A DNA stretch of 57,531 bases from Thermodesulfobacteriota bacterium (GTDB lineage: Bacteria > Desulfobacterota > Anaeroferrophillalia > Anaeroferrophillales > Tharpellaceae), in assembly GCA_024763535.1 (NCBI GenBank), contig JANTFH010000001.1, positions 71,337 through 128,867 of the forward strand, written 5' to 3'. This document shows, in pieces, positions 7,019-32,715 of this stretch. Position 1 is the stretch's first letter. Every line of letters starts with the position of its first letter. The position numbers and the translations under genes are program-made. A model generated the notes under the pieces. That model searched no databases and was not told where the DNA came from. It saw nothing but the letters and a program-made list of their open reading frames with translations.

Positions 7019-7055
7019 GAATTGTATCCTTTACAGTGTGGCTGAGTTTGTGAAC

Positions 7056-7682
7056 TCACGCATCCCATAGCAGTCTGGGGTCAAAGGTTATAGCCGCAAA
7101 CATTGTGCTTATGACTACTCCGACAAAGTAGGGAGCCGCTATATCGGCGGTAATCGTTGTAATATTTGTAAAATTTACCAGAACCTGAAGCAGGGCGATA
7201 ACGAAAATGTCCAGCATTGACCAGCGGCCGATAAATTCAATGATACGGAAAATCAGGGCTTTATGGCGCATCCAGCTGTCCCAGCGGAAATGAATTGAGA
7301 GCAGAATCAGAATCAGGCCGATTATCTTGAAACAGGGTACCAGGATGCTGGCCGTGAGAATGACCATGCCGATACCGTAGGAGCCTTCCTGAAAAAAGTA
7401 GATAATTCCGTCCATGATTGTCGAAGCTTCGGCGTTACCAAGATAGTTAACGTTCATGATCGGTAGAATATTGGCCGGAAAAGTCAAGATAAGAGCGGTT
7501 AAAACCAGGGCCCAGGTGCGATTCAAACTGCCGGGTTTGCGTAGATGAAGAGTGGCCCCGCAACGCGGGCAAACAGCCTCATCGGTAGAGGCTTCCGGCT
7601 GCCGGGGCGTGAGTTTACGGCAGTCGTGGCAGAGTACCAGATTGGCATCACGAGCGGTTGTAGTCATGGTTGAGCTGTTCAT
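7056..7682 (-). CDS. PqiA/LetA-like membrane protein, C-terminal half
   Basis: LetA and PqiA are inner-membrane partners of MCE tunnels, made of two similar halves each with a zinc ribbon and a four-helix membrane bundle. This 208-residue protein is a single half. A zinc ribbon sits at about residues 17-44 (CHDC...CPRC), followed by four hydrophobic segments. Its start overlaps the end of the preceding half by four bases (ATGA). Gene order, channel - half - half - LetB, implies this is the second half. Splitting LetA into two genes is a variant of the usual fused form; both halves look complete, so this is not a broken gene. Confidence 0.88.
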   Translation of the reverse strand: MNSSTMTTTARDANLVLCHDCRKLTPRQPEASTDEAVCPRCGATLHLRKPGSLNRTWALVLTALILTFPANILPIMNVNYLGNAEASTIMDGIIYFFQEGSYGIGMVILTASILVPCFKIIGLILILLSIHFRWDSWMRHKALIFRIIEFIGRWSMLDIFVIALLQVLVNFTNITTITADIAAPYFVGVVISTMFAAITFDPRLLWDA

Positions 7683-8365
7683 CGCGAGGCCCTCCCGGCT
7701 TCAATCTCCTCCCAGAACTCTTCCTCACTGAGGGATAAAGATGAACCAACGGTGGTTGCCATAAGAGCGATAAAACAGAAAAAACCAACATTGTAATGGA
7801 TACTGGCCATATGATGCATTTTAATGATGGTGACAAGGATGCCGATCATCTGCACCTCGGTCATTCCCCACTCATCAATTTGAATATAGATACGCATCAT
7901 TTTCGGCAGATAGTTGGGGATGCGTTTGAATTTAAGGTGGAGGCTGATCCAGAAGACCAGACAGAGTTTTGTCAGGGGGAACACTACACTGGTCAGGACC
8001 AGAGCGATTGCGATAGTAAAGTAGCCGGTGTGCCAGGTTGAAATTATCCCGTCGAAGATAGTTCCGGTATTTTTCAGGCCCATCGTATCGAGAGTCATGA
8101 TCGGCATGAAAACGGCGTAGGGAAAGAGCAGCAGACCGGTCAGGGAGAGCCCCAGGCTGTGGTCGATCGAATTTCTTTTCGGGGCTCTGAGAATCTCATC
8201 ACAGCGCGGGCAGACAAGTTTTTCTCCCGGTTGAACCGGGATATCTTCAAGCAGAAGATCACAGCCGGGGCAGGCCAGTACCTGAGACGGATCAAGCTTG
8301 TCGAATCCTGAATCGGTTTGCTGTTTGATGGTCGATTGCTCGGAAAATGTTTGATTCATGGCCAT
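7679..8365 (-). CDS. PqiA/LetA-like membrane protein, N-terminal half
   Basis: This 228-residue PqiA-domain protein has a zinc ribbon at about residues 32-57 (CPGC...CPRC) and four membrane helices, beginning with SLTGLLLFPYAVFMPIM. It pairs with the following PqiA half to make what is one protein in E. coli LetA. The family's role is to deliver or accept lipids at the inner-membrane end of the MCE tunnel. An extended polar N-terminus of about 30 residues precedes the ribbon. The ion-channel gene upstream stops at the base next to this start, so all four genes are probably cotranscribed. Confidence 0.88.
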   Translation of the reverse strand: MAMNQTFSEQSTIKQQTDSGFDKLDPSQVLACPGCDLLLEDIPVQPGEKLVCPRCDEILRAPKRNSIDHSLGLSLTGLLLFPYAVFMPIMTLDTMGLKNTGTIFDGIISTWHTGYFTIAIALVLTSVVFPLTKLCLVFWISLHLKFKRIPNYLPKMMRIYIQIDEWGMTEVQMIGILVTIIKMHHMASIHYNVGFFCFIALMATTVGSSLSLSEEEFWEEIEAGRASR

Positions 8366-9055
8366 CTACTCTGCGTCCCGGGTGAAACTCTGGGCGACTT
8401 GAATACCGACCAGCCGGGCCACCAGGACAGCGGTGAAAAACTGTCCGATGATCGCTTCAATATGACAAAAAGCCATGGCCGCCGGGGTCTGCGGGGTGAT
8501 GTCTCCGTAACCTAAAGTCGTCAGGGTGACAAAACTAAAATAGTGAAAATATTCAAACTGCTCTCGGAAAGGGATGCCGTTTTTTATCCCCGAGAACGAG
8601 CCGGGATGAATCTCTTCGAGCAGCATTAAAGCTGAGGCCCAGAGCAGACCCAGTAAAATATAGAGACAGAGAGCGGCCGCAATGAGTTCGGAGTCAATTT
8701 TGCGGGCGTGAAAAATATAGCGGCTGAAAGCCAGAACCAGAAGCAGCAGATAGGTAACCAGAACGGCATTGATTGCAATCTCGTTGATATGCATCAGCCT
8801 GAAGGTGCGGCTCCAGAGTATAACTGTCACTATCGCCAGCAGAGTAAACCCCGGCAAGCTGATAATCCTGCTCTCCTGGTGAATTGTATAGACCGCCGCA
8901 AAGAGAACGATGGAAAATAGGAATTGGACGGCTACGTCGGTGTGGGGGGCGGCATTTAAGAAAGGGCTGATAAGAAAATAGAGTAAAAGCCAGACCAGTA
9001 AAAATTTAAATTTGAAATGAAAACGAGTTCTCTTTTTTGAATTGTTACTATTCAT
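8366..9055 (-). CDS. Two-pore-type ion channel protein (potassium channel family)
   Basis: The C-terminal third carries the Ion_trans_2 pore: a helix, the selectivity filter TLTTLGYGDITP and a final helix IEAIIGQFFTAVLVARLVG. TLGYGD is the potassium signature. Upstream are about four further hydrophobic segments, so the protein resembles a six-helix channel without a recognisable charged voltage sensor or a cytoplasmic RCK domain. At 229 residues it is short but complete. It is the first gene of the run leading into the LetA halves, directly abutting them. The link between a potassium channel and a lipid tunnel is only positional. No obvious strong ribosome-binding site was seen. Confidence 0.82.
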   Translation of the reverse strand: MNSNNSKKRTRFHFKFKFLLVWLLLYFLISPFLNAAPHTDVAVQFLFSIVLFAAVYTIHQESRIISLPGFTLLAIVTVILWSRTFRLMHINEIAINAVLVTYLLLLVLAFSRYIFHARKIDSELIAAALCLYILLGLLWASALMLLEEIHPGSFSGIKNGIPFREQFEYFHYFSFVTLTTLGYGDITPQTPAAMAFCHIEAIIGQFFTAVLVARLVGIQVAQSFTRDAE

Positions 9056-9138: not shown

Positions 9139-9975
9139 TTATTCGACGTCAGGTAATTTTTTAACCCAGTCACCATTTTCCAGCCAGAAATCGGTTACCC
9201 TTTTCAACTCGCCGCTGCCTTTGAAAGAGATCAGTAAATTGTTCAGCCAGTTGACCAACAGCGGGTCATTGGCCGGGGCGGCAATGCCGATCGGTTCAAA
9301 GGTGAAAGGCTTCAACATGGTGGAGAGTTCCTGCTCGGGAAAACGAAAGGCGGTTATCAGACAGATGGGATAATCGGCCACCAGAGCATTGACCTGACGC
9401 TCAAATACCAACTTGACGGCATCGTTGTAAGTCTCGGTTGTAACCAGTTTTGCCTTAGGCAGCATGGTTTCAACTACCTGTTGACTGGTTGAGCCTTTCA
9501 GCGCTGCTAGAGAGATATCAGATTTATTGAGTTCAGCTCCGCTGTTGAAGGAGGCGATGGCGATATCTTTGGTCAGGATGGATTTGCCGGAGATGAAATA
9601 GGGCCCAACAAAAGCGACCTTAAGGTTGCGTTTGCCGGTCATGGTCATATTCGACATTACTAGGTCAATTTCACCGGCCTCAAGTGCGGGCAGCAGTTCA
9701 TGAAAGGCCATCGGTTTCATGGTCAATTTAACCCCCATGCCGCCGGCGATAAAGGTGGCGATATCGGGTTCTATGCCGATGATTTCTCCGCTTTTGGTGG
9801 TCATGTTGAGCGGCGGCATTGAGGCGGCGGTACCGACAATAAGTTCACCCCGACAGAGAATACGTTCCAGGGTTGGTGATGCCGCCGCATTTTTTTGGTT
9901 CTCTAGACCATTGCAGGCAGCCAGTAACAGGGGAATTAAAGCCGCGAGGGCGATAATTTTACAGATTCTGATCAT
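9139..9975 (-). CDS. Amino-acid-type ABC substrate-binding lipoprotein (SBP_bac_3)
   Basis: A signal peptide ends in the lipobox LLAAC with the lipidated cysteine at residue 20, so the protein is anchored to a membrane facing the periplasm. The mature part has the family 3 solute-binding layout: GELIVGTAASMPPLNM near the start, GIEPDIATFIAGGMGVKL, then LVMSNMTMTGKR. This family binds polar amino acids and similar small ligands. No permease or ATPase is next to it, so it serves a transporter elsewhere or acts as a sensor. GAAGGAG lies just upstream of the ATG. It ends 83 bases before the channel gene on the same strand. The 191 bases upstream hold no clear gene. Confidence 0.85.
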   Translation of the reverse strand: MIRICKIIALAALIPLLLAACNGLENQKNAAASPTLERILCRGELIVGTAASMPPLNMTTKSGEIIGIEPDIATFIAGGMGVKLTMKPMAFHELLPALEAGEIDLVMSNMTMTGKRNLKVAFVGPYFISGKSILTKDIAIASFNSGAELNKSDISLAALKGSTSQQVVETMLPKAKLVTTETYNDAVKLVFERQVNALVADYPICLITAFRFPEQELSTMLKPFTFEPIGIAAPANDPLLVNWLNNLLISFKGSGELKRVTDFWLENGDWVKKLPDVE

Positions 9976-10166: not shown

Positions 10167-11510
10167 TCAGGAGGGTTGAACCAGCTGATCCCAGAGCAGG
10201 CCTTTGAAACCGAAACGCTGCATGACCTGCATCCGCTCCAGGGCTTCACCCGGGGGAAAGAGCCTAAGCCTCCGGCCCTTGCAGGCGGCGCTGATCTCTA
10301 AATTCATCGCCTCGTTGTTGATCATCGGAGAGAAGTAGTAGGTTGGGCGCAAAAGTGAGGTCGCAGGTGTTATTACACCCTCTTTCAGGGACCGCTGGTA
10401 GAGATTGGTGCCGGGCAGAATCCGCAGCCCGGAAAAGAGAAAAAGCACCCCGCCTGAAAGTTTGTCCAGATTTTTGAGGCCTTGAGAGAGGGTGGCCGGG
10501 GTTTCCTGCGGCCCGCCGAAAATGAGATAGTGGGCGATCGGCAGTTTAAGCTTACGGCAGAGATTGTGGGTTGTCAAAATATCCTCAAGCGAGAAATCCT
10601 TGCCCAGTCCCTCGAGGGTCTCTGCGGTAATAGCGTCACTGCCGGATTCCAGGGCCGAGAGTCCGGATCTCTGAAGCAGTTTCAGGGTTTTACTATCCAA
10701 TCCGGCGGGTCGGAAAAAGGCGCTCCAGTTGATTTTCAAAGAACGGTTTAAGATCTCTTCGGCAATGGCCAGATGGTGCCCCTGATTATCATTGAAGACG
10801 GAATCAACAAAGAAGATGGTTCTGACATCGTAGGTTTTAGTCAAATGTTCAATATCATCCACTACCGCGGCCGCCGGGCGCCGGCGAAAGTGGTGGCCTT
10901 CAAGACCGGGGTAGGTGCAGTAGTGGCAATGGTGGGGACAGCCGCGTTTGCTCTGCAGGTTGGCGATACCGCTCTGCTGCTGATAAAATTTGAGGATTTC
11001 CGGGTGAAACAGAGGTTTCGCAAACTCTTTGCCGGTCAGCGGTTTCCGGCCCTGGCTGATGGCCGGTGGTCGGCTGCCGGAGTTGATCTCACTTAAGAGT
11101 CGAGGCAGAGCCTCTTCGCCCTCCCCGGCAATGCCGTAATCGGCGGCCAGATAATCAAGGATGGCCTCCGGCATCAGAGAGAAGGCGGGGCCGCCGATAA
11201 TCGTCGGGGCCGAACTTAGAGCCCTGATTTCGGCAATCGTCTTGCGGGCCGTTTCCAGATACCAGCCTTCATCCCCGCTTAAAGAGTCGGTGTTGTCGAT
11301 ATTGCGCAGGGAAAAACAGATAAAATCCGGCTTGAGCCCCGAAATCATCTCTTTCAGAGCTGCCTGGTTATTTTCCGCCGCGAGCAGATCGAACTGCTCA
11401 ACCTGATGGCCGCTGTCAGTCAGGGAGCGGGCAACCAGTGCCATCCCCAGCGGGTAGACGGCATACGGCGCGGTCGCCAGATTGGTGGAAATCAGGAGTA
11501 CCCGACTCAT
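10167..11510 (-). CDS. B12-binding radical SAM enzyme 2 of the KS operon
   Basis: The N-terminal 140 residues form a cobalamin-binding fold (MSRVLLISTNL, GHQVEQFDLL, PTIIGGPAFS, GEGEEALPRLL). The radical SAM core follows with C191, C195 and C198 (CPHHCHYC), which bind the 4Fe-4S cluster that cleaves S-adenosylmethionine. Enzymes of this class methylate unreactive carbons or rearrange rings. HpnJ, HpnP and HpnR are hopanoid-linked relatives. It overlaps the previous radical SAM gene by four bases and ends the operon. Association with ketosynthase genes suggests a lipid or polyketide substrate. I recall a database family labelled as lipid biosynthesis B12-binding radical SAM proteins that may include this one, but could not check. 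The reaction is unknown. Confidence 0.85.
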   Translation of the reverse strand: MSRVLLISTNLATAPYAVYPLGMALVARSLTDSGHQVEQFDLLAAENNQAALKEMISGLKPDFICFSLRNIDNTDSLSGDEGWYLETARKTIAEIRALSSAPTIIGGPAFSLMPEAILDYLAADYGIAGEGEEALPRLLSEINSGSRPPAISQGRKPLTGKEFAKPLFHPEILKFYQQQSGIANLQSKRGCPHHCHYCTYPGLEGHHFRRRPAAAVVDDIEHLTKTYDVRTIFFVDSVFNDNQGHHLAIAEEILNRSLKINWSAFFRPAGLDSKTLKLLQRSGLSALESGSDAITAETLEGLGKDFSLEDILTTHNLCRKLKLPIAHYLIFGGPQETPATLSQGLKNLDKLSGGVLFLFSGLRILPGTNLYQRSLKEGVITPATSLLRPTYYFSPMINNEAMNLEISAACKGRRLRLFPPGEALERMQVMQRFGFKGLLWDQLVQPS

Positions 11511-12775
11511 GCGGAGACCGCGTCGCTGCGCTTGAATTTACGTGATTTTTTCGGGTCATAACGGCGGTAGGTGCCATCCGCCATTTCCCGGGCGATAACA
11601 TTCTGAAAAAGGGCCCCCATCTTGATCTGATAGCCGCCGTCGGCGTAGAAGGTGTCCCAGGCGTAGTGAAAGAGCTCCTGAAGTTTGTCGGGAGAGAGCT
11701 GTCTGGGCTGGAAAACCACCTTGTCGGTGGTGTATTCAATCCAGTTGTTATTTAAGATACGGTTCTCTTTCTCCAGCTGCCGGCGCAGCGGGGTGTGGAG
11801 AAAAGGTGTCAGAATCGTGAATTCGGCAACATCAAGGTTGATCCCCATGAGAAAATCGACCAGCTTGCGGATGTAGGTTTCATCCTGATCGTCCGTGCCC
11901 AGAAGAATGGTTCCTTCGACTCCGATACCGTGCTCTTTTAAGCGTTCGATGCGGCGGACTATGACCGGTGAGGTATCGATTATTGCCTGATAAACGTACC
12001 AGCAGCCGGCCTCGGCCGCCAGTTTGACAACCTCTTCATCATCTAAAATCGGATGTGAGACCCATTTTTTCTTGAGCGGTTTCATGGCCGTGAAGAGTTC
12101 GATGAGCCAGTCGCGGTCCTGGGCCAGAGAGTTATCGACCACGAAAAGGCGGTTGTTGGGAATCTGCTCCATCTCGGCAATGACCTGTTTAACCGGCCGC
12201 GGCCGGAATTGACGGCCCCCGAGATAGGCGGTGCTGCAGGGGAAGCAGTTAAATTTGCAGCCCCGTGAGGCGTGGACCAGATCAAGCATCTGCACGCCGC
12301 GATAATTGTAGAGTTCGCGGTTCAATATCTCCCGCCGGGCCGGGCCGACAAGTTCGATGTCGGGATGATGGTTGAGATAGTCATAAACCGGTTTCAGCTT
12401 TCCGGCCTTAAAATCATCTATAACCATACCGTAGCGGCCTTCCGATTCGCCCAGAAAAATCGAATCGGCGTGCTCTTTGACCTCCTCGGCATGCAGCATG
12501 GTGGCGATGCCGCCGAAGATTACCGGGATCTTCCGGGCCCGGAAATGGTCGGCCAGAGCAAAAGCCCGGGGCAGTTGACAGGTGAGCATCACCGAAACCA
12601 CTACCAGATCGGGCGTCTCTTCAAGATCAACCTCTTCCAGGTTGTCATCGGTAAATTTAATCTCCACCTCTTCCGGTACGGTCGCGGCAAAGACCACGGG
12701 GCCGTGCGGCGGCAGGTGAAATTCGGTCTGCTGTTTCAGTTTGGGCCAGCGGGGGTAGATAAGTCGCATCTTCAT
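11507..12775 (-). CDS. B12-binding radical SAM enzyme 1 of the KS operon
   Basis: This 422-residue protein has a cobalamin-binding-type N-terminal domain (residues 1-140, with PVIFGGIATMLHAEEV and SIFLGESEGRYG) and a radical SAM domain with C173, C177 and C180 (CKFNCFPC). The C-terminal 80 residues are basic. It is clearly different from the second radical SAM enzyme, so the pair is not a recent duplication. It starts 22 bases after the chain-length-factor-like gene and overlaps the next gene by four bases, so it is cotranscribed with the ketosynthase genes. By family it could add methyl groups to, or cyclise, an acyl chain; the substrate is not known. Confidence 0.85.
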   Translation of the reverse strand: MKMRLIYPRWPKLKQQTEFHLPPHGPVVFAATVPEEVEIKFTDDNLEEVDLEETPDLVVVSVMLTCQLPRAFALADHFRARKIPVIFGGIATMLHAEEVKEHADSIFLGESEGRYGMVIDDFKAGKLKPVYDYLNHHPDIELVGPARREILNRELYNYRGVQMLDLVHASRGCKFNCFPCSTAYLGGRQFRPRPVKQVIAEMEQIPNNRLFVVDNSLAQDRDWLIELFTAMKPLKKKWVSHPILDDEEVVKLAAEAGCWYVYQAIIDTSPVIVRRIERLKEHGIGVEGTILLGTDDQDETYIRKLVDFLMGINLDVAEFTILTPFLHTPLRRQLEKENRILNNNWIEYTTDKVVFQPRQLSPDKLQELFHYAWDTFYADGGYQIKMGALFQNVIAREMADGTYRRYDPKKSRKFKRSDAVSA

Positions 12776-12797
12776 GGTTGACAGGTTCCGTAAAATT

Positions 12798-13538
12798 CTA
12801 GCCGCAGATCCGTTCGCAGATGGAGAAGATATCCGGGCAGGGTTGATGGTTGATGTAAAAATTTCCGGTCTTAAGATCGCAGCTTAAAACGGCGTGCACC
12901 CGGGCCGGGGCCTGCGTCTCTTTCTCTAAAACCAGAAAAAGCGCCCCCGAGTACCGGGGCGCGGCTGAAGTTTGCGCAAAAAGGTTGCAGATTCCAGCAA
13001 CAACCACCTCGTCGTCGCCGGTGATCAGCTCTTCCAGTGCCAGTTTAAGGGCGGAGTCGGCCCGCGGTTGGGATTCGAGTACCGTCATGCCGGCTCCGGT
13101 CAGAGAGAAGCGCAGAGCCGCTTCACCTAAAAAACTGGTGGCCAGAGTATAGACGAAAAGTCCGGGGCTGGCAAGGCCGGGTTCTTCCTGAATGGTTCGA
13201 TAAAAATCCCGGTCGGTAACCCCGCAGCTGCTGGTGGTGGCACTGATCAGAGCGATGGAAGTCTCAGCTGCCGGTTGTTTCGCGGGGAGATAACCGGCAT
13301 CTTCCAGAGCCAGGCCGATTGCGGCCACGCCGATTCGGGAAAAGAGATCGAGCCGGCCGAAGCGGGAACCGCCTTTGAGTGACTTAAGCATCGCGGCGGG
13401 TACGGTCGGGGTGCCCACATCCCATTCGGGCTTGCACCGGTCAGAACCCCGGCCCGCATTGACGGCGCTGATCCAGCCGATACCGGTAATCGGCACATTT
13501 ACGATAGAGGGTGAATGAAAATTATTGATCAGGTTCAT
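12798..13538 (-). CDS. Chain-length-factor-like ketosynthase partner
   Basis: This 246-residue protein resembles the N-terminal half of a ketosynthase (VPITGIGWISAVNAGRGSD near the start; GDDEVVVAGICNLF later) and matches the short ketoacyl-synt_2 type of protein found beside ketosynthases in aryl-polyene clusters. Where an active ketosynthase has its TACASS nucleophile region, this protein reads LTGAGMTVLES, without a cysteine. It therefore cannot condense chains itself and likely shapes the pocket of the neighbouring ketosynthase, as a chain-length factor does. It begins one base after the ketosynthase stop codon. That position and the lost cysteine make a heterodimer with that protein the best guess. 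Confidence 0.78.
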   Translation of the reverse strand: MNLINNFHSPSIVNVPITGIGWISAVNAGRGSDRCKPEWDVGTPTVPAAMLKSLKGGSRFGRLDLFSRIGVAAIGLALEDAGYLPAKQPAAETSIALISATTSSCGVTDRDFYRTIQEEPGLASPGLFVYTLATSFLGEAALRFSLTGAGMTVLESQPRADSALKLALEELITGDDEVVVAGICNLFAQTSAAPRYSGALFLVLEKETQAPARVHAVLSCDLKTGNFYINHQPCPDIFSICERICG

Positions 13539-13539
13539 T

Positions 13540-14700
13540 TTAACTTTTACTCAGAATAAGGGCGGCGTTAATCCCGCCAAAACCGGAGTTGGTAAGGAGC
13601 AGATGGTTGCCGGAGAAGTCCTGTCTCTGCGGTTCGATCCGGTTGCAGCTTGCGGTTTCAGGCTGCCGCAGACCCATCGTCGGCGGCAGACACTGTTCCT
13701 GAAGCGAATTGACGGCAATGGTTGTTTCCAGAGCGCCGGCCGCCCCCAGGGTGTGACCGAGAGCGCCTTTGACCGAGTGCAGCGGTATCTTTTTCGGAGT
13801 GGCGGAATTGTCGAAAAGATGGTTGAAAGCGGCAATTTCCATCTCGTCGTTATGGATGGTGGCGGTGCCGTGAGCATTGATGGCTGCAATCGCTTCAGGT
13901 TTCAGTCGGGCCCGGTTCAGAGCCCGGCGACAGGCTTTGAGCAGACCCCGACCGTCCCGGGCCGGGGCGGTCAGATGCACCGCGTCATTGGCAATGCCCC
14001 AGCCGGAGATTTCGGCCAGAGGTTTTAATCCTTCTTGTTGTGCCTTCTCCTTTGACATCAGGAGCAGGGCGGCTGCGGCTTCACCCAGAATCAGACCGTT
14101 ACGATGCTTATCGAACGGGCGGCAGCAATCGGGAGTCAAGGCCTTGATCGAGGCAAAACCGGCAAAGACAAATTCGGAGATAATTTCCGCCGCCCAGACC
14201 AGAATACAGTCATCAAAGCCCGCGGCAATCCGGCCCGCGGCCCGGTTTAAGGCCACGGTTGACGAAGCGCAGGCGGCATTGATCAGCAGGCCGGGTTGAT
14301 TCAAAGAGAAGTGTTCTGCCACCAGCTTCGCCGTCGCTGCCGGAGGAGAGATCTCCTCCGGCAGCGCTGGTTTACCGTCGGCTGCTGCCTGCTGCCACTT
14401 TTTTTCCTGAAGATCGATGGCGCCTTTGAGGGTTGAACCGATTAATCTGCAGGATGCGGGCAGGGTCGGCGGCAGGTTTTTGAAAAGTAGCTGTAAAAGG
14501 TGCTCCAGCCGCCCTGCCGCCTGCGGTCGGGAGTCAAGTTTTTTAATCCCGGCGGCGATCCTGCAGTAGTAGGGGGCGGGGTCAAAGCCGGTAACCGGGG
14601 CCGTCCCGGATTCTCCGGCCAGCAGCTTATGCCAGGTTTGAGAACGGTTGTCACCTAAGGCCGAGACCGCTTCCGCCGCGACAATTACGACTTCATTCAT
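13540..14700 (-). CDS. Beta-ketoacyl-ACP synthase (FabF-type)
   Basis: This condensing enzyme joins acyl and malonyl units on an acyl carrier protein. The catalytic triad is intact: cysteine 144 in NAACASS, histidine 277 in NAHGTAT and histidine 316 in GALGHTLGAAG. Length (386 residues) is slightly short for FabF. I use ATG 14700, which overlaps the stop of the thioesterase gene; a TTG codon one triplet earlier is less likely. It is paired with a cysteine-less partner downstream, as in type II polyketide and aryl-polyene systems. No acyl carrier protein or ketoreductase is in the operon, so these must come from elsewhere in the genome. Confidence 0.88.
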   Translation of the reverse strand: MNEVVIVAAEAVSALGDNRSQTWHKLLAGESGTAPVTGFDPAPYYCRIAAGIKKLDSRPQAAGRLEHLLQLLFKNLPPTLPASCRLIGSTLKGAIDLQEKKWQQAAADGKPALPEEISPPAATAKLVAEHFSLNQPGLLINAACASSTVALNRAAGRIAAGFDDCILVWAAEIISEFVFAGFASIKALTPDCCRPFDKHRNGLILGEAAAALLLMSKEKAQQEGLKPLAEISGWGIANDAVHLTAPARDGRGLLKACRRALNRARLKPEAIAAINAHGTATIHNDEMEIAAFNHLFDNSATPKKIPLHSVKGALGHTLGAAGALETTIAVNSLQEQCLPPTMGLRQPETASCNRIEPQRQDFSGNHLLLTNSGFGGINAALILSKS

Positions 14701-15182
14701 CAAGGGTTACCGGGGTCGTCGGGGAGCAGGTTTTCCCGCCAGCGTTTGAGGAAGGTTTGAAAAAAAGGCGGCGGCACCATCAGTACGCTCTTATCTTTAA
14801 GATCAACCATCATCTGGATTGAGTAGCCCGAGGTGGTCGTCTCGCCCCGGTCATTTATGATCTCGTAGGTTAAATTGAGACGGGCGGCCTCGGACCAGTG
14901 CAACTCCGCTTTGATGGTGAGATCCTCGCGTAAACAGAGCGGTTTTAAGTAATCAAAATGGAGCTGGCGCAGGGGGGCGGCAACCTCGGCCTGGAAAAAA
15001 TCGAGATAACCGATGCCGTAGTGGTCGCCTAAAGCCTCCCTCACATCCTCGAAATAACTGGGGTAGCGACCATGCCAGACGATGCCTAAAGCATCAACCT
15101 CTTCAAAACGCACCTTTCTGTTAACCGCAAAGGTGAGTGGTTTCGGGGCTTCGGGGATGGTTCTGAAAGGATTTTTTTTCAT
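14700..15182 (-). CDS. 4HBT-family acyl thioesterase
   Basis: The hotdog-fold thioesterase motif VDALGIVWHGRYPSYFEDVRE is of the YbgC/4-hydroxybenzoyl-CoA type, with the catalytic aspartate near residue 31. The enzyme hydrolyses acyl-CoA or acyl-ACP thioesters. At 160 residues it is slightly longer than YbgC, with an extra tail ending DDPGNP. In this operon it probably releases the chain made by the ketosynthase or proofreads stalled chains. It starts 78 bases after the dehydratase-like gene, the widest gap in the operon, and overlaps the ketosynthase start. Thioesterases of this type also occur in aryl-polyene clusters. Confidence 0.83.
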   Translation of the reverse strand: MKKNPFRTIPEAPKPLTFAVNRKVRFEEVDALGIVWHGRYPSYFEDVREALGDHYGIGYLDFFQAEVAAPLRQLHFDYLKPLCLREDLTIKAELHWSEAARLNLTYEIINDRGETTTSGYSIQMMVDLKDKSVLMVPPPFFQTFLKRWRENLLPDDPGNP

Positions 15183-15260
15183 CGCAGAATAGATATCTTC
15201 AAGTTCTCAGCCGCCGCTTGCAAACACAATCCGGAAAACGGAGTTGGGGTGAGTTTCGCT

Positions 15261-15641
15261 TCAGACCGGCTCTAGGATTAAAGTCATGCTAGATACTTTT
15301 TTTTGGGCTGTAAAAATTGTGATTTCAGTCTTGATTTCGGCTGCCGTATCCGTCGCCGGACGCCGGATGTGGCAGATTATCGTCAGGGTGTCATTCGGTT
15401 TGATCGGCACCATGAATTTAGCTTTATCCAGTTTTTTTAAGACCAGACTGCCATTGTATAACTCTTCCGCCACAACCACCCCGAAAAGAACCTGCAGCAT
15501 GGCGGGCATGATCGGATAACCGGGGAAATGGCCGGAGAAGCCGGCGAAATCGGTGGTCGGCTGAAAGGTTTGTGAACCGGAATCGGGTGCTGTCTGACTG
15601 AATTTGCTGATTGCGGTTTTACTGATTTTCCGGCGGATCAT
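15261..15641 (-). CDS. Hotdog-fold 3-hydroxyacyl dehydratase-like protein
   Basis: The 126-residue protein has the FabA/FabZ core GHFPGYPIMPAMLQVL. The catalytic histidine (38) of GHFPG is kept. The glutamate that normally follows in PGVLxxE is a leucine (residue 52), and the usual PG is PA. In FabZ both residues act in the dehydration of 3-hydroxyacyl-ACP, so this protein is either inactive, uses another residue, or has another role such as thioester binding. Small FabZ-like proteins also occur in aryl-polyene clusters. It overlaps the lipoprotein gene by four bases. I cannot tell whether it is catalytic. Confidence 0.75.
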   Translation of the reverse strand: MIRRKISKTAISKFSQTAPDSGSQTFQPTTDFAGFSGHFPGYPIMPAMLQVLFGVVVAEELYNGSLVLKKLDKAKFMVPIKPNDTLTIICHIRRPATDTAAEIKTEITIFTAQKKVSSMTLILEPV

Positions 15642-16285
15642 GGTTGTTTAATTTCCCGGGCCTGATGCAGCCAGAGGGTTAGTTTATAGTTCGGTTTACG
15701 GCTTTGTAAAATAATCTTTTGCGGCAGCCGGCCGCACGGATATAGATGGTAATCGCCGTAGCTGACCACCCAGTCGGGGTGGGCTCCTTCCGGGCTTAAA
15801 CCGCTGATTTCAGTCGGTATGCCGCTGAATTTAAGCTGCAGCGGCGGCCTGTCTGAATTTTGTTCTTCAGACTCTTTGAGGCTTAAAAATATATGCTGCA
15901 CCGCGCCTGCCACCGCTTCGGCAAAATGGTGTCTGCGGCCGGTAGCGGCATTTGATTCCGGCGGCAGTTTGAAGCTTAAACTGCTGATTTCAATGTTGAG
16001 CAGGGTTACTCCCAGGGCCGTAAAAATTACCAGATGGGCCCGGTTTTTTTTGAGGTCAAGTTCCATGAAGCCCTCCAGGATCTCCTTCTTATCCCGATAC
16101 TCAAGCGTGGCGCTCTGCCGCAGACGGTAGACGACCGGTCGCGTAAGCCAGCATCCGGCTGCGGTTTGGGTTATGGTGAGTTCATTCTTTGCGGAGTCAA
16201 CCGGAAGTTTCTGCGTGCAGGAGATAAGGCTGAGAAAGAGCAGCGGAATGATTTTGCAGCTGATTTTCGTTTTTTTCAACGTCAT
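15638..16285 (-). CDS. DUF3261-type outer-membrane lipoprotein
   Basis: The signal peptide ends with a lipobox (LSLISC, cysteine near residue 23), so the protein is a lipoprotein. The rest, with VVYRLRQSATLEYRDKKEIL and YPCGRLPQKIILQSRKPNYKLTLWL, fits the DUF3261 family that accompanies aryl-polyene and related clusters, where it is thought to help place the product in the outer membrane. I start at ATG 16285; the codon before it is TTG and could also be used. No strong ribosome-binding site is seen. It begins 13 bases after the stop of the preceding membrane-protein gene. Its presence suggests the operon product ends up in the outer membrane. Confidence 0.7.
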   Translation of the reverse strand: MTLKKTKISCKIIPLLFLSLISCTQKLPVDSAKNELTITQTAAGCWLTRPVVYRLRQSATLEYRDKKEILEGFMELDLKKNRAHLVIFTALGVTLLNIEISSLSFKLPPESNAATGRRHHFAEAVAGAVQHIFLSLKESEEQNSDRPPLQLKFSGIPTEISGLSPEGAHPDWVVSYGDYHLYPCGRLPQKIILQSRKPNYKLTLWLHQAREIKQP

Positions 16286-16298
16286 CAAAGTTAATCAT

Positions 16299-17198
16299 TC
16301 ACGACTGATCGATAATCATGGGTTTGGAGTTGTCATCATCAGGGCGGGATCGTCCGGTTAACTCATGAATATTGTTGAACGAGAGAACCCGGCCGTCCTG
16401 GTTCATGACCCGGCCGTCACCGATCAGGATGAGGCCGGTTTTGTCGATTACATCTTTTTTGTACTGGAACTCGTATTCAAGCGTCTTCTTGCGCAGATTA
16501 TAGCTTAAGAACATCCAGATCAGGCCGACGACGAAGGCGACTGCCAGAACCACCGCCAGGCCGATAAAAAGGTAGTGGGCGGTGCGTTCGCCGACATGTC
16601 CGACGACCGCCAGAATGTCGTTCAGTTTGTAGGCCACAACCGAGAGTGCCAGCAGCGTCAGCAGCCCCAGGAGAAAAGGAAACTGGCGCACGACATAGAG
16701 CGTCGCGTGCAGCTTGTGGATGCGACTTCGGGTTTCAGAGGCGGACTTGAAGAAGTCTTTGAATTCATCTCCGGAACTTTTGTGCCCGAAGATGTAACGG
16801 TCAAAACTCAGGATAATAATTCCCAGCAGAAAGGTGATGGTTACCGGGGTTGTAAAAGCGACGAAGAAATAAGATTTCCAGGGGAAAGGTACGTTTTCCG
16901 GGCCGAGCTGGCTTAAAAAGCTGACAAAGAAGATGAAGGCTTCAATGACAAACATGGTGACCAGGTAGCTGCGGAAGAGACTTTTCAGCTCGTCTTTGTC
17001 AAATAGGGCGGCGACCCCTTTGGTTTTATGGTGGCTGGTTGACTGGTCGGGCTCTGCGGCCGGGCCGGTTGCCGCTGCTTCGGGATTGGCGTTTTCCGGA
17101 CGAGGCTTTTCGTCGTCAGGGATGGGGTTGGCGGCACCCTGATTTTCAAGGTTTTCGGAGCCTTGATCTAAAAGATTGTCAGTTGGCGTTTGCTCCAT
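16299..17198 (-). CDS. Unrecognised membrane protein heading the KS operon
   Basis: I do not recognise this 299-residue protein. Residues 1-60 are polar and rich in proline, glutamate and asparagine. Four hydrophobic helices follow (around residues 75-100, 108-135, 165-195 and 205-235), with a basic stretch NLRKKTLEYEFQYKKD after the last. The C-terminal 65 residues are polar (VIDKTGLILIGDGRVMNQDG). It is the first gene of the operon, 13 bases before the lipoprotein start, and lies divergent from the cytochrome bd-like genes. It may be an anchor or export partner, or may merely share the promoter. The ribosome-binding site is weak. Confidence 0.65.
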   Translation of the reverse strand: MEQTPTDNLLDQGSENLENQGAANPIPDDEKPRPENANPEAAATGPAAEPDQSTSHHKTKGVAALFDKDELKSLFRSYLVTMFVIEAFIFFVSFLSQLGPENVPFPWKSYFFVAFTTPVTITFLLGIIILSFDRYIFGHKSSGDEFKDFFKSASETRSRIHKLHATLYVVRQFPFLLGLLTLLALSVVAYKLNDILAVVGHVGERTAHYLFIGLAVVLAVAFVVGLIWMFLSYNLRKKTLEYEFQYKKDVIDKTGLILIGDGRVMNQDGRVLSFNNIHELTGRSRPDDDNSKPMIIDQS

Positions 17199-17460: not shown

Positions 17461-18831
17461 ATGCTCTATCCTATCTTTGAATTTCCAGGCGTCGGCGGGG
17501 GGATGATTATTGCTGCCATTGCGACCTTTCATATCCTGCCCTGCCATCTGGCCACCGGAGGTTTCTGGATGGCCTGGTATCTCGAACGTCGCGGGCACGC
17601 CACCCATGATCAGGAGCTGCTCGATTATATCAAGCGTTTTGCTCTGCTGATCCTGATTTTCTGTTTTGTTACCGGTTCAATTACCGGGGCCGGGATCTGG
17701 TTCGCGAGTACGATTATCAGCCCCCGGGCGATCTCCGGTCTGATTCACAACTATGTCTGGGGCTGGGCGACCGAGTGGGTGTTCTTTCTGATTGAGGTGG
17801 TGACGATCTATACCTACTACTACACCTTCGGTAAGGTTAAACCCAAAACCCACATGCGCATCGGCTTGATCTACGCCTGGTCCGCCTGGATCAGCATGGT
17901 GATCATCACCGGCATTCTGGCCTTCATGATGACCCCGGGCAAATGGCTTGAGACCGGCGGCTTCTTTGACGGTTTCTTTAATCCCACCTACTGGCCTCAG
18001 CTCTTCTACCGGACGATGATGATGCTGGCGATCTCCGGCATGTTTGCGGCTCTTCTGGCCGGCTTTATGAAATCGGGGCCGACCAAAACCTACGTCATCA
18101 AAACCGCCGGACGCTGGGGCCTGATAAGTTTGTCCTTAGGGGCTCTGTTTGCGGTCTGGTACTATTTCAAACTTCCGGCCAACGCCCACGAAACCCTCTC
18201 CGGGGTTCCCTATGATCAGATTATGTTTAAGATCTCGCTCGGGATCGGCGCCGTGATGGCGCTCTATTTTGCGCTGCTTTTGACCGGGCGTGAAATCCTG
18301 GTGAAGCCGGTTCTGGCCCTGTTGATGATTGTGGTTATGTTTGTCGGCATCGGCGGCGGGGAAAGTGTTCGTGAGTACTCCCGGCGTCCCTATCTGATTC
18401 CCGGAGTGATGTATTCGAATCAGATAGTTGCCCACGATCTTGAAGCCAAGGGGATTAAATCCGAAGTGACCCGTTATCAGGAAGAGGGCTTTTTGCAAAA
18501 CAACTATTTCGTTCCGCCCGAATGGCGCCGGATCGATGAGAAAAATTACATGCAGGCCGGGATGCTGCTGACGAAAGCCAACTGCGTCATCTGTCATACG
18601 ATGGAGGTTAACGGGCGCAGTTCGCTACCGGGGTTGGTGACGGAGATGGGGTCGACTTCGGCGAGTGAACTTAATGATTTTCTCGAAACTATGGGTGAGG
18701 ATTATAACTTTATGCCGGCTTTCTCCGGCAATCCCCAGGAGCGCCGGGCCGCGGCCGCATTTATCGCGTCAATCGTACCCGATAACGAAAATGAGCCTCC
18801 GACAGCGGAGTGGGTTGTCAATGGTGAATAA
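17461..18831 (+). CDS. Cytochrome bd subunit I-like protein with C-terminal heme c site
   Basis: This 456-residue inner-membrane protein belongs to the cytochrome bd superfamily. Histidine 24 in FHILPCHLATGG sits where the bd heme b595 ligand lies, and WGWATEWVFFLIEVV carries acidic residues like those of the proton/oxygen site. After about nine helices, a periplasmic tail has C375-V-I-C378-H379, a heme c site, and methionine 418 (NFMP) as probable sixth ligand. Typical CydA has neither a heme c domain nor this length, and the usual quinol loop is not evident. By recollection, bd superfamily branches with a fused cytochrome c exist and may take electrons from a cytochrome rather than quinol. 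The reaction is therefore uncertain. The next gene is homologous. Confidence 0.8.
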   Translation: MLYPIFEFPGVGGGMIIAAIATFHILPCHLATGGFWMAWYLERRGHATHDQELLDYIKRFALLILIFCFVTGSITGAGIWFASTIISPRAISGLIHNYVWGWATEWVFFLIEVVTIYTYYYTFGKVKPKTHMRIGLIYAWSAWISMVIITGILAFMMTPGKWLETGGFFDGFFNPTYWPQLFYRTMMMLAISGMFAALLAGFMKSGPTKTYVIKTAGRWGLISLSLGALFAVWYYFKLPANAHETLSGVPYDQIMFKISLGIGAVMALYFALLLTGREILVKPVLALLMIVVMFVGIGGGESVREYSRRPYLIPGVMYSNQIVAHDLEAKGIKSEVTRYQEEGFLQNNYFVPPEWRRIDEKNYMQAGMLLTKANCVICHTMEVNGRSSLPGLVTEMGSTSASELNDFLETMGEDYNFMPAFSGNPQERRAAAAFIASIVPDNENEPPTAEWVVNGE

Positions 18832-18943
18832 AATAAGCGCTCTTATTTGCGACCTTGGAAGTGCCCTTGGGTGCGGGCCGATAAATCACTTTTGGGTTGC
18901 GGGACTGTTCCCGTATTACTTATAGGATCAGGAGGATCATATT

Positions 18944-20047
18944 ATGGATATCAATACTGCCTTACAGGCTCTGCGTGACCCTTTCGGGGTGCCGTTTTTT
19001 CCTTGGGTTTTTCAACTTTTGATGGTTTTAACCTTTGCTCTGCATATTATTTCCGTAAATCTGGCGGTGGGTGGTATCGCCGTGTCCGTCTATGAACATT
19101 TCAAAGGCGGCGAGTACAATCGAAAACTCTCTCAGATGCTGGCAAAAGTAGCCACGATTTCACTCTCGTCCGCCATTGTTCTGGGGGTGGCTCCGCTTCT
19201 TTTTGTGCAGGTGATATACGATCCTTTCTGGTATGTTTCCAACTCCCTGTCGGCCTGGTGGGCGATAGCTTTTCTTCTCTTTATTACACTCGGCTTTCTG
19301 GCCCATTACGTCTTCTATCTCAAACGCCATAAAAATCCTGCGGGCTACGGCCTTTTCGGGCTTTCAGGGCTGGTTTTTGTGCTCGCCGCCGGAGTAGTTA
19401 TGAGTGCCTTATCGGTGCAGGCTCTGGTTCCGGGAGCCTGGCTCGACTGGTATAGCGCTAACGGAAGTCTGGTGACTACCGGCACGACCCTCTATAAATT
19501 TGAACTTGGTCGTTTCCTCCATTTTATCGTGCCGTCGTTTATCAATATCGGGATTTTTATGATGCTCTATGCCTGGTATTTCCGGCCCCGGGCCGACATC
19601 GACGGGGCCTGGCTTGACTGGGTCGGCCGGGCCGGGGTCAAGGTTGCCAAAATCGCAACTATGATTGAGATTGTCATCGGTTTCTGGTGGCTGGTTATGA
19701 TTCCCGCAGATCTCGGTTTTTTGCACAACCACTGGCTCTGGCTCGGATCACTTTTGGGGCTTCTGCTGATGGTCGGCTTGATGAAGGCGGAAAAAGATCC
19801 GGAGCGTTTTGCCGTCCCCATGGCCCTTTTATCCTTTATTGCCGTTTTCGGAATGAGTGCCGCTCGTGAAGTTTTGCGGATGGTTTACGTCGGGGCCTTC
19901 AAATACTCTATATATGACTATCCGGTAAATGTTGACTGGGGCAGCACCGCACTTTTTCTCGGGACCTTTGTCATGGGCCTGATCGTCATGGCCTATCCCT
20001 TGATTGTGGTTTTCAAGCTGGGGCGGGGTCGGTTGTCGGAGTCATAA
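18944..20047 (+). CDS. Second cytochrome bd subunit I-like protein (CydA'-like)
   Basis: This 367-residue protein has about nine membrane helices. Its opening (H34-IISVNLAVGG) has the same spacing as the previous protein's H24-ILPCHLATGG: histidine, five residues, LA, one residue, GG. The two are thus homologues, not subunits I and II of an ordinary oxidase. No heme c site is present. The pair likely forms a heterodimer in place of CydAB; I know of CydA-CydA' pairs in other bacteria and archaea. AGGATCAGGAGGATCAT precedes the ATG. The 112 bases between the two genes can form small hairpins (for example CGGGACTGTTCCCG). Confidence 0.78.
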   Translation: MDINTALQALRDPFGVPFFPWVFQLLMVLTFALHIISVNLAVGGIAVSVYEHFKGGEYNRKLSQMLAKVATISLSSAIVLGVAPLLFVQVIYDPFWYVSNSLSAWWAIAFLLFITLGFLAHYVFYLKRHKNPAGYGLFGLSGLVFVLAAGVVMSALSVQALVPGAWLDWYSANGSLVTTGTTLYKFELGRFLHFIVPSFINIGIFMMLYAWYFRPRADIDGAWLDWVGRAGVKVAKIATMIEIVIGFWWLVMIPADLGFLHNHWLWLGSLLGLLLMVGLMKAEKDPERFAVPMALLSFIAVFGMSAAREVLRMVYVGAFKYSIYDYPVNVDWGSTALFLGTFVMGLIVMAYPLIVVFKLGRGRLSES

Positions 20048-20228: not shown

Positions 20229-20687
20229 GTGAAAAAAACTGCACTGGCTCTATTATTGATATTGTTAATGGCAATGCCGCTTACCGCAGCCGCCGCCGAT
20301 GGAATGATTAAGGTTAAAAGCTCTTACAGCGTTGCCGAAACCGCCTCCCGACTGGAGAACATCCTGAAGCAGAAAGGGATGACGATTTTTGCTGTCATTA
20401 ACCATGCGCAGGGTGCCGCCAAGGTCGGGATTAAACTCCGGGATACCCGCTTAATCATCTTCGGCAATCCTAAAATTGGGAGCCTTTTGATGCAGTCCCG
20501 GCAGAGTGTTGCTGTCGATTTGCCGCAGAAGGCTTTGATCTGGCAGGATGATAAGGGTGGTGTCTGGATATCGTACAACGATCCTGAATACTTAAAAGCG
20601 CGGCATCAGCTGAGCGGCTGCGATAAGGTTATCGCAAAGATCAGCAAGGCTCTGGCTGCGATCTCTCATAAGGCCGCCTCTAAATAG
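20229..20687 (+). CDS. DUF302 protein, exported
   Basis: A signal peptide of about 22 residues (LLLILLMAMPLTAAAA) is followed by a DUF302 domain: SYSVAETASRLENILKQKGMTIFAVINHAQGA is the usual opening, and FGNPKIGSLLMQ the middle. The domain's job is unknown; these proteins often sit near respiratory or redox genes. Translation begins at GTG after AAGGAGAG. It follows the bd-like genes by 38 bases and probably belongs to their operon, so a periplasmic redox or heme-related role is possible. Its last eight bases overlap the end of the convergent activase gene. Confidence 0.82.
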   Translation: MKKTALALLLILLMAMPLTAAAADGMIKVKSSYSVAETASRLENILKQKGMTIFAVINHAQGAAKVGIKLRDTRLIIFGNPKIGSLLMQSRQSVAVDLPQKALIWQDDKGGVWISYNDPEYLKARHQLSGCDKVIAKISKALAAISHKAASK

Positions 20688-21438
20688 CTTGGGCCGCGAT
20701 CAGGGCGGCGCCGCAGGCACCTACCATCTGCGGATTTGCCGGAACCAGGAGTGCGGTCTGCAGCTCCTCTTCAAGCAGTCGGCACACGCAGGGGTTGATG
20801 GCCACTCCGCCGATAAAGGCGATGCGGGCTCCGGCAACCGGGAAGCGTTTCAGCATGCTGACGGCCCGGTTGGCGATGGCGCGGTGGAGGCCGAAAGCGA
20901 TATCGTGGCGATTTTCGCCGCGGCCGATCAGGGAGGTTACTTCCGATTCGGCAAAAACTGCGCACATACTGTTGATCTGGAGCTCTTTTTCGGCTTTAAG
21001 CGCCTCCTGGCCCAGTTGGTCCAGAGGAAATCCCAGAGACATGGCGGTTAACTCCAGAAATTTACCGGTGCCGGCCGCGCAGCGGTCATTCATCTCAAAT
21101 TTGCTGACCCTGCCGCCGGGCATCAGGGCGATAACCTTGGCATCCTGACCCCCGATATCGAGGATTAAATCAGCCTCGCTGAACATAAACCGGGTACCGA
21201 CGGCCACAGCTTTAATCTCGGTTACGGTCTCCGTTTTGCGGTCGTAGGTGTCGGCAAAAAGATGCCGGCCGTAGCCGGTTGCCAGCAGCCGGTCACAATG
21301 TTCTCCGGCCAGCAGTTTTTCCGCCTGTTCGACCGGGCTGAAACCGGTTTCCGTCTGGCGGCTGACAACTACCTTACCATCCTCGATGATCACGACCTCA
21401 ATCGTCCGGGAGCCGAGATCAATTCCTGCACAGCGCAT
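20680..21438 (-). CDS. Acyl-CoA dehydratase activase (HgdC/BcrA family ATPase)
   Basis: This ATPase carries one 4Fe-4S cluster between two subunits and fires electrons, at the cost of ATP, into a 2-hydroxyacyl-CoA dehydratase or related double-cubane protein. The ASKHA-fold motifs GIDLGSRTIE and DIGGQDAKVI are present, as are the two cluster cysteines (MNDRCAAGTG and NSMCAVFAESE). I start at ATG 21438; an in-frame TTG 12 bases upstream has no better signal. It follows the dehydratase-family gene by 62 bases and is the last gene of the operon. Only one activase and one large subunit are present, which matters for naming the target. Confidence 0.9.
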   Translation of the reverse strand: MRCAGIDLGSRTIEVVIIEDGKVVVSRQTETGFSPVEQAEKLLAGEHCDRLLATGYGRHLFADTYDRKTETVTEIKAVAVGTRFMFSEADLILDIGGQDAKVIALMPGGRVSKFEMNDRCAAGTGKFLELTAMSLGFPLDQLGQEALKAEKELQINSMCAVFAESEVTSLIGRGENRHDIAFGLHRAIANRAVSMLKRFPVAGARIAFIGGVAINPCVCRLLEEELQTALLVPANPQMVGACGAALIAAQAI

Positions 21439-21500
21439 AGTTTTTCCCAATTTTCGCGATATCTTGATCAGATAAACAGGTTGAATTGCATTGTGGATAA

Positions 21501-32030: not shown

Positions 32031-32715
32031 GCAGCTCAGGCAATCTGCGAGACCAGTTTTGCTCCTTATCGGTGCCGATATCAACCGCCGCGCCCGGATA
32101 CTCAAATAAAAAAACGCTTAGCTGTTCGCGGTCGGTTCTGTATGCAAGTCTTCGGTGATTTCTGCCAATAAATTATTGTTGTGTTTGGATTTTACGGAAC
32201 ATAGTTCACGTTTCTAAAATTTTGGATCAAAAATCAAAAAATCAACAACGTCCCCTAACACTCTCTTTTCGAACTGAGACGGGGGACTGACTTGGAGAGA
32301 GGGCGTTACCCAGCCCGAACGGAAGTCTGTTACCCTCGGCGAAGCAAACTTCCTACCATCTCGAATTAACGCAAAAAGAATAGGAATGATGTTCGTTACT
32401 TTCATCTTGCAGCTTAAATAGGTCACCTTTTCGTTCTTTCGTTTTGGAGCAAATATCAAAATCAACAACGTCCACCTTTTGTCCTTTCTAATGGGAAATA
32501 GATCGTTTGTAAAATTTATCGACTAACTTAGTGCGGTTTGGTTTATTTTATATTAACATTGTGTCGGTTTATTTAACATAAAATAATATATTTTTTGTCA
32601 TGATTTTATAATTTACCGGAAATAAGTGCATAAATTGCTGGTATTTTTTTTGCTTATACCTAATTCAATTGGAGTATGTATTAACAATAGGAGAAGTTTT
32701 TTTAGGAGGTGTGTT
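32031..32715. other. AT-rich intergenic stretch with repeats
   Basis: About 680 bases without a gene I would accept. The CAACAACGTCC repeat occurs twice, at 32219-32250 and 32443-32476, about 225 bases apart, framing a segment with GAACTGAGACGGGGG and GTTACCCTCGGCGAAGC-like text. A minus-strand frame (32214-32468) reads through both repeats and is not believable. The last 150 bases are very AT-rich and probably hold the promoter of the next gene; AGGAGG lies at 32705-32710. Confidence 0.45.

Follow-up and report, generated by a model that had tools for sequence, protein, structure and literature searches.

A ketosynthase operon with two radical SAM enzymes as a probable piece of a split, aryl-polyene-like gene cluster

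Aryl polyenes (APE) rank with the most widely distributed pigments of bacteria, and we know of no ladderane outside the anammox bacteria, for which pure cultures are not available. The roles of the APE genes have been described for the reference cluster apeA-R of E. coli CFT073 (PMC8253772), and FASII clusters with radical SAM genes in Desulfotalea, Geobacter and Pelobacter were noted beside the anammox 'ladderane' clusters by Rattray 2009 (PMC2649909). The function of 'ladderane' clusters in non-anammox genomes is called unknown in PMC9902471. Our searches for APE or ladderane together with radical SAM in these genera retrieved only Rattray 2009 and mining surveys, a text search for TIGR04072 retrieved no paper, and no B12/radical SAM version of aryl polyenes is described in the papers searched. 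Here we compare with these systems an operon located in a 57,531-nucleotide window (the whole stretch analysed) from a Thermodesulfobacteriota bacterium. The original prediction regarded its pathway as possibly undescribed. This is only partly right, since one of its radical SAM enzymes falls in a family already named for lipid biosynthesis and the cluster, in which APE building and export genes are combined with a B12/radical SAM cassette, belongs to a type already noted in Rattray 2009.

Gene content and order of the operon

Eight open reading frames were recovered on the minus strand between positions 10167 and 17198, with the same coordinates as in the original prediction. From 5' to 3', the seven junctions, which span -4 to +78 bases, are +10 (Mem-lipoprotein), -4 (an overlap, lipoprotein-hotdog), +78 (hotdog-4HBT), -4 (4HBT-ketosynthase), +1 (ketosynthase-partner), +22 (partner-rSAM2) and -4 (rSAM2-rSAM1); six of them do not exceed 25 bases, in agreement with the predicted run of same-strand genes nearly all overlapping or closely spaced. 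No hidden ACP reading frame was found in the 78-base gap, and a promoter/terminator scan gave little above shuffled sequence for terminators. An unrelated solute-binding protein (9139-9975) is encoded 191 bases downstream of rSAM1.

The first gene, Mem (16299-17198), encodes a 299-aa membrane protein with about four hydrophobic segments, for which a Pfam search returned no family. Its relatives were found only within the same genus or family (at four loci and, in part, at a fifth), always directly before the lipoprotein gene, a spot occupied by MMPL in other clusters; that Mem and not MMPL adjoins the lipoprotein in this family weighs against the explanation favoured below. The lipoprotein (15638-16288), which holds the position of ApeN and whose Cys24 is invariant within its family, is LolB-like as judged by profile-profile comparison and predicted fold. 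The single sequence scores 14.9 bits against Pfam DUF3261, below the cut-off of 22.3; hhalign aligns it with the DUF3261 family from clusters of this type at 99.9% (E 1e-36), and the top PDB matches of its AlphaFold2 model (pLDDT 82) are the LolB structures 8cm1 and 1iwm.

The hotdog protein (15261-15641) is an ApeI/FabZ-like dehydratase according to its Pfam matches (FabA, 24.7 bits; ApeI-like, 24.5 bits, under the cut-off of 28.5), its PDB profile matches (6qsr and FabZ chains) and His38 of a GHFP motif, which is invariant in 61 relatives. The 4HBT thioesterase (14700-15182), at the ApeK position, matches Pfam 4HBT_2 with 56 bits, has Asp30, Trp36, Gly38 and Glu45 invariant in 73 relatives, and finds 4-hydroxybenzoyl-CoA thioesterase (6fdg) and YbgC in the PDB. 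KS1 (13540-14703), the active ketosynthase, possesses both the N- and C-terminal Pfam domains, and its Cys145, His278, Lys312 and His317 are kept in every relative covered; none of the NCBIfam ketosynthase equivalogs reaches its cut-off. The chain-length-factor-like partner, CLF (12798-13538; ApeC position), comprises the N-terminal half of a ketosynthase only (Pfam ketoacyl-synt, 26.5 bits), no conserved cysteine being seen at the nucleophile position of the alignment, and its profile matches include FabF and the KS-CLF partner chains 6smo_C and 1tqy_B.

The two remaining genes encode radical SAM enzymes. The most conserved gene of the cluster is that of rSAM2 (11507-12775; 58-93% identity), in which a CxxxCxxC motif at residues 173-180, with C173, C177 and C180 invariant, follows a B12-binding-like N-terminal domain. 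Its matches to Radical_SAM (26.2 bits) and to B12-binding (PF02310, 24.7 bits vs a cut-off of 32.1) lie just under the Pfam cut-offs, no NCBIfam model matches it, and in the tree it forms a clade of its own with 100/100 support. The folds closest to its AlphaFold2 model (pLDDT 85) are AprD4 (6fd2), TsrM (6wte), MgmA and CysS; since the nearest of these is AprD4 (TM 0.76), the use of cobalamin by rSAM2 is uncertain. The last gene, rSAM1 (10167-11510), codes for B12-binding and Radical_SAM domains with CxxxCxxC at 191-198, and its nearest solved structures are TsrM, AprD4, MgmA, CysS and TokK. It matches TIGR04072 (rSAM_ladder_B12, lipid biosynthesis B12-binding/radical SAM protein) end to end with 610.5 bits, the cut-off being 360. 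A second tier of this family, at ~280-440 bits, occurs in other ketosynthase clusters and elsewhere; the member partnering rSAM2 here is of the top tier.

Conservation of the block and the probable split of its cluster in this genome

Six of the genes form a conserved block, whose order (ApeI-like dehydratase, 4HBT thioesterase, KS1, CLF, rSAM2, rSAM1) is identical in all 37 named loci that hold all six, over several phyla. Median junctions across loci are -4, -25, -4, +10 and -4, and rSAM2 adjoins rSAM1 in 68 of 68 loci. Conservation of all eight genes in order across distant genomes, proposed as support for a pathway, was borne out for this block and not for Mem, which is confined to this family. 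KS1 occurs in 21 and rSAM2 in 51 of 395 genomes of the phylum, and all 21 genomes with KS1 also have rSAM2 (Fisher p 3e-21; by genus, 14/14). Inspected rSAM2 loci without KS1 still sit among other ketosynthase, ACP, GT2 or LolA genes. The genomes and loci covered thus neither keep the ketosynthase without rSAM2 nor place rSAM2 away from such company, and these results uphold the prediction of one shared lipid/polyketide pathway. The block is not universal: three clusters have neither KS1 nor CLF, and some lack rSAM1. In G325, a complete genome, this cluster is split, with the break exactly between CLF and rSAM2. This separation, seen also in some other genomes, speaks for a ketosynthase block and a radical SAM pair that are unrelated and adjacent by chance; that reading is exceedingly improbable, since the overlapping start/stop junctions count against it and fortuitous juxtaposition was ruled out by the conserved order and co-occurrence.

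The original prediction held that ACP, KR, acyl- or glycosyltransferase, LolA and MMPL genes were absent. They are contiguous with the block in relatives, flanking it in one cluster of ~20 genes with the order KSa-PDS-KSb-ACP-AT-(AMP ligase)-ApeP-LolA-MMPL-LolB/DUF3261-hotdog-TE-KS1-CLF-rSAM2-rSAM1-rSAM3-GT2-LpxL-ACP-KSc-KSd, where PDS is phytoene-desaturase-like, and most of them were located on other contigs of this genome: KSa, PDS, KSb, ACP, AT, an ApeP-like protein (PF22817, 22.2 bits vs a cut-off of 27) and LolA on C15, MMPL on C13, a third B12-radical SAM gene (rSAM3) with GT2, LpxL and ACP on C33, and KSc and KSd on C65, these contigs being joined only by membership of the same MAG (126 contigs, 1.26% contamination). 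The absence of the usual APE genes beside the operon is explained by the splitting of the cluster, of which the operon is a part. A dedicated KR, which in Geothermobacter adjoins KSa, was not located in this genome; nor was a clear orthologue of the AMP ligase (ApeH, the starter-activating acyl-ACP synthetase; best match 28% identity), an enzyme often missing from clusters of the KSa/PDS variant. Genomes of Desulfobacterota, Nitrospirota and Omnitrophota carry full clusters; a planctomycete has part of one. Cultured carriers are Geothermobacter hydrogeniphilus HR-1 and Desulfuromusa kysingii DSM 7343, as well as Halodesulfovibrio spirochaetisodalis JC271, whose cluster is without KS1 and CLF; a gene-to-lipid test is therefore practical outside anammox bacteria.

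Proposed pathway and the radical step

Taken together, the operon is probably the central block of an APE-like type II fatty-acid/polyketide cluster of anaerobes, broken into several loci here, that would make an outer-membrane lipid with a radical-SAM-modified chain. We infer that the scattered parts act jointly. ACP-bound units would be condensed by KS1 and its cysteine-less partner, along with the further ketosynthases encoded elsewhere, and dehydrated by the ApeI-like hotdog protein and the ApeP-like enzyme of C15, which would leave a polyene or another kind of unsaturated chain. Radical modification of this chain or of its head may then follow through rSAM2, rSAM1 and the third enzyme of C33, most likely as C-methylation or ring formation, while the 4HBT enzyme might proofread or release the chain. 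Anchoring to a lipid or a sugar would fall to PlsC-, GT2- and LpxL-like transferases, and transport to the outer membrane would rely on MMPL, LolA and the operon's own LolB-like lipoprotein. An outer-membrane product, as originally predicted, is likely.

The solved cobalamin-type radical SAM enzymes TsrM, AprD4, MgmA and CysS resemble those of the operon in domain layout and fold; however, they share less than 20% identity with rSAM2, and they act on small molecules or proteins and are not known to act on ACP-bound acyl chains. It is unlikely that the pathway is a near-conventional APE one, with radical SAM enzymes that supply or modify an aromatic starter or head instead of the chain and an rSAM2 that is cobalamin-free like AprD4. 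AprD4, the best structural match of rSAM2, is a radical SAM enzyme described as a diol dehydratase, the B12-binding domain of rSAM2 stays under the Pfam cut-off, and the closest solved or named kin of rSAM1, TsrM and BzaD, act on aromatic rings or cofactors, all of which would suit such a pathway; yet the AMP ligase is optional, no starter-forming gene is common to all clusters, and rSAM2-rSAM1 come after KS1-CLF where these are present, not after a ligase. Returning to the chain-modifying pathway, we tentatively suggest, as one possibility, that the rSAM2-rSAM1(-rSAM3) cassette might perform successive radical C-methylation or carbocyclisation of an ACP-bound polyene; the resulting APE-like lipids of the outer membrane would form a new class, peculiar to anaerobes of several phyla, and anammox ladderane synthesis would derive from this cassette as its evolutionary relative. 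A gene-to-lipid test would bear on what non-anammox 'ladderane' clusters make and on whether cyclisation or methylation of acyl chains is among the reactions of cobalamin-type radical SAM enzymes.

Comparison with ladderane and aryl polyene clusters

Like the anammox ladderane FASII clusters and their deltaproteobacterial relatives, this cluster type combines FASII genes, including several ketosynthase paralogues (cysteine-less ones among them), with a radical SAM pair and with phytoene-desaturase-like, phenylacetyl-CoA-ligase-like and glycosyltransferase genes, and the rSAM1 family is named for ladderane. In contrast, the anammox rSAM2 homologues fall in another clade (100/100 support) and score 219-262 bits vs ~690 or more, and no TIGR04072-type rSAM1 was seen in the anammox-like loci read. 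As far as rSAM2 is concerned, its scores and its place in the tree rule out a true anammox ladderane cluster. A broader reading, along the lines proposed for Kuenenia and Desulfotalea, is that radical SAM and phytoene-desaturase-like enzymes desaturate or cyclise an ordinary, non-exported membrane acyl chain, the products being either ladderane-like membrane lipids or long polyunsaturated fatty acids, from which polyunsaturated hydrocarbons derive. We consider it rather doubtful. The 'ladder' lipid annotation of rSAM1, the phytoene-desaturase-like gene on C15, the synteny with D. psychrophila, a producer of C31:8/C31:9 hydrocarbons (PMC2649909), and the grouping of rSAM2-like, ketosynthase, LolA, LpxL and AMP-ligase homologues in genomes with hydrazine-synthase-type genes (presumably anammox) are all in its favour. 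On the other hand, the rSAM2 of the window is separated from its anammox homologues in the tree, D. psychrophila produced no ladderanes (PMC2649909), Kuenenia genes expressed in E. coli yielded no new lipids, although most proteins were insoluble (PMC4790861), and the presence of MMPL, LolA, LolB and GT2 genes implies that the product is exported and anchored.

The resemblance to APE clusters that had been predicted is supported in both building and export genes. KS1 and its partner are adjacent (12798-14703), as in the named loci; counterparts of ApeI, ApeP and ApeK give weak matches at conserved positions; and ACP, PlsC-like acyltransferase, GT2/LpxL-type transferases, LolA-like, MMPL/RND and DUF3261 proteins complete the likeness, all but the LolB-like protein being encoded on other contigs. 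Against PRK09185, which we take to be the model of APE-type ketosynthases, KS1 and KSc score 208 and 298 bits, below the cut-off of 407. Unlike APE clusters, this type encodes two to three B12-type radical SAM enzymes, extra ketosynthases and a phytoene-desaturase-like oxidoreductase, its GT2 and LpxL are separate genes and its AMP ligase is optional; in the present genome, it is split over several loci.

The operon and its conserved core

Positions 10167-17198 of the window are filled by eight minus-strand ORFs encoding, from 5' to 3', a membrane protein of 299 aa (Mem), a LolB-like lipoprotein, a hotdog dehydratase, a 4HBT thioesterase (TE), an active ketosynthase (KS1), a cysteine-less, chain-length-factor-like partner (CLF) and two radical SAM enzymes, rSAM2 and rSAM1; the successive junctions measure +10, -4, +78, -4, +1, +22 and -4 bases. 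Searches of Pfam and NCBIfam uphold the domain assignments, in good agreement with the gene calls of the original prediction, and catalytic residues are kept in KS1, the hotdog enzyme and the thioesterase. Mem is specific to the family of the source organism and occupies the slot held by MMPL in other clusters.

Using rSAM2 as bait, we fetched 80 named loci and mapped the cluster families with HMMs built for this analysis. The order hotdog-TE-KS1-CLF-rSAM2-rSAM1 was identical in all loci having the six core genes (37/37), rSAM2 and rSAM1 were neighbours in 68/68 loci carrying both, and KS1 and CLF were found in 50 of the 57 loci with enough flank. Among 395 genomes of the phylum, rSAM2 was present in 51 and KS1 in 21, all 21 of which also carry rSAM2 (Fisher p 3e-21); by genus, a count that allows better for kinship, the two co-occurred in 14/14 genera with KS1. 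The KS1-less rSAM2 loci inspected still lie amid other KS, ACP, GT2, LpxL, LolA, MMPL or ApeP-like genes. The proposal that ketosynthase and radical SAM genes share a pathway therefore withstands the refuting condition set with the original prediction and holds, and the operon is a real, widely conserved pathway block.

Elsewhere in the window, we recognised two further gene groups by eye. Downstream of the operon, 4340-9055 encodes a PqiB-like MCE protein of 892 aa along with two PqiA-like proteins and one resembling an ion channel; genus relatives retain the SBP-PqiA-PqiB order. At 17461-20047 lies a divergent cytochrome bd-like pair, in the first protein of which a haem-c motif, CxxCH (CVICH), stands in the C-terminal part, where CydA does not usually have one. 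Positions 20680-22778 encode a 2-hydroxyacyl-CoA dehydratase D-component and a BadF/BcrAD-type activator ATPase, and 32626-33579 a protein with a PEP-CTERM sorting motif.

A larger, split cluster

In relatives, the block forms part of a cluster that runs to some 20 genes: KSa, a phytoene-desaturase-like oxidoreductase (PDS), KSb, ACP, a PlsC-like acyltransferase (AT), (AMP ligase, SPASM radical SAM), an ApeP-like dehydratase, LolA, MMPL, LolB/DUF3261, hotdog, TE, KS1, CLF, rSAM2, rSAM1, rSAM3, GT2-DUF2062, LpxL-like, ACP, KSc and KSd. A KR adjoins KSa in Geothermobacter hydrogeniphilus HR-1. Judging from record titles, which may be unreliable for MAGs, carriers include Desulfobacterota, Nitrospirota, Omnitrophota, one Phycisphaerales planctomycete and others.

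The partner genes, originally thought absent, only seem so because the cluster is split. In the source genome, KSa, PDS, KSb, ACP, AT, the ApeP-like gene and LolA lie on contig C15, MMPL on C13, rSAM3, GT2, LpxL-like and ACP on C33, and KSc and KSd on C65; no clear AMP ligase orthologue and no dedicated KR were located there. Such splitting also occurs elsewhere: the complete genome G325 carries the cluster as two loci (L251 and L038) about 2.6 Mb apart, with the break falling precisely between CLF and rSAM2. Three MAGs of the same genus have KS1, alone or together with CLF, on another contig than rSAM2, for which either true splitting or, in some of them, a contig end may account.

On C65 (L105, 8254-12602), the cobalamin-assembly genes cobU, cobS and a histidine-phosphatase-family gene come after KSc and KSd in the same orientation, a suggestive fit to the B12-type enzymes of the cluster. 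The source genome also has a second trio of ACP-KS-KS-like genes, which follows an ABC-2 transporter (L106 on C24, 6256-9980), and a frame of 2826 aa (L112 on C54) whose KS and ACP domains resemble those of a type I PKS or PUFA synthase.

Radical SAM enzymes, lipoprotein and proposed pathway

rSAM1 belongs to TIGR04072 ('lipid biosynthesis B12-binding/radical SAM protein'), which it matches over its full length with 610 bits against a cut-off of 360. For rSAM2, the NCBIfam search returned no family membership; its B12-binding and radical-SAM domains score slightly below the Pfam cut-offs, and its CxxxCxxC is invariant. The AlphaFold2 model of rSAM2 (pLDDT 85) matched AprD4, TsrM, MgmA and CysS; since AprD4, itself a radical SAM enzyme, is not known to use cobalamin, the 'B12' label of rSAM2 is putative. 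Among named families rSAM3 is closest to HpnJ, but far below its cut-off. Methylation is the reaction of most cobalamin radical SAM enzymes characterised so far; OxsB, HpnJ and BchE instead form rings or rearrange them (PMC13142503).

In single-sequence Pfam searches of the lipoprotein, DUF3261 and LolB both fell under the cut-off. Its family alignment matched DUF3261 proteins of sister clusters with 99.9% probability, and LolB structures were the first matches in the fold search (E 7.5e-8). The DUF3261 LolB-like protein of the E. coli aryl polyene (APE) system is ApeN (PMC8253772), and alignment and fold together put the operon lipoprotein in this role.

With the APE pathway as template (PMC8253772), KS1-CLF would condense ACP-bound units, hotdog enzymes would dehydrate them without enoyl reduction, and the thioesterase would proofread or release the chain, which acyl- and glycosyltransferases would anchor and MMPL-LolA-LolB would deliver to the outer membrane. 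Ring closure or the addition of methyl groups would fall to the radical-SAM cassette; we infer product, step order and radical reaction alike.

Relation to known clusters

FASII/radical-SAM clusters are common to Kuenenia, Desulfotalea psychrophila, Geobacter and Pelobacter (Rattray 2009, PMC2649909); D. psychrophila makes unusual polyunsaturated hydrocarbons and no ladderanes (PMC2649909), and Kuenenia genes expressed in E. coli yielded no new lipids (PMC4790861). A Cariaco Basin survey reported 'ladderane' clusters of unknown function in Desulfobacterota and other phyla (PMC9902471).

Could the window cluster be the anammox system itself? In planctomycete genomes whose anammox status was inferred from hydrazine-synthase-type genes, rSAM2 homologues are only distant (219-262 bits). 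They fall outside the rSAM2 clade of the window with support 100/100, and on these grounds we rejected that identity. Two of these loci nevertheless place the rSAM2 homologue beside KS, LolA and LpxL homologues, one also having an AMP-ligase homologue. The two cluster types therefore have parts in common, and probably ancestry, yet their rSAM2 proteins form separate clades. We classify the window cluster, with its uncharacterised radical-SAM cassette, as a variant of the APE-like/'ladderane-type' clusters.
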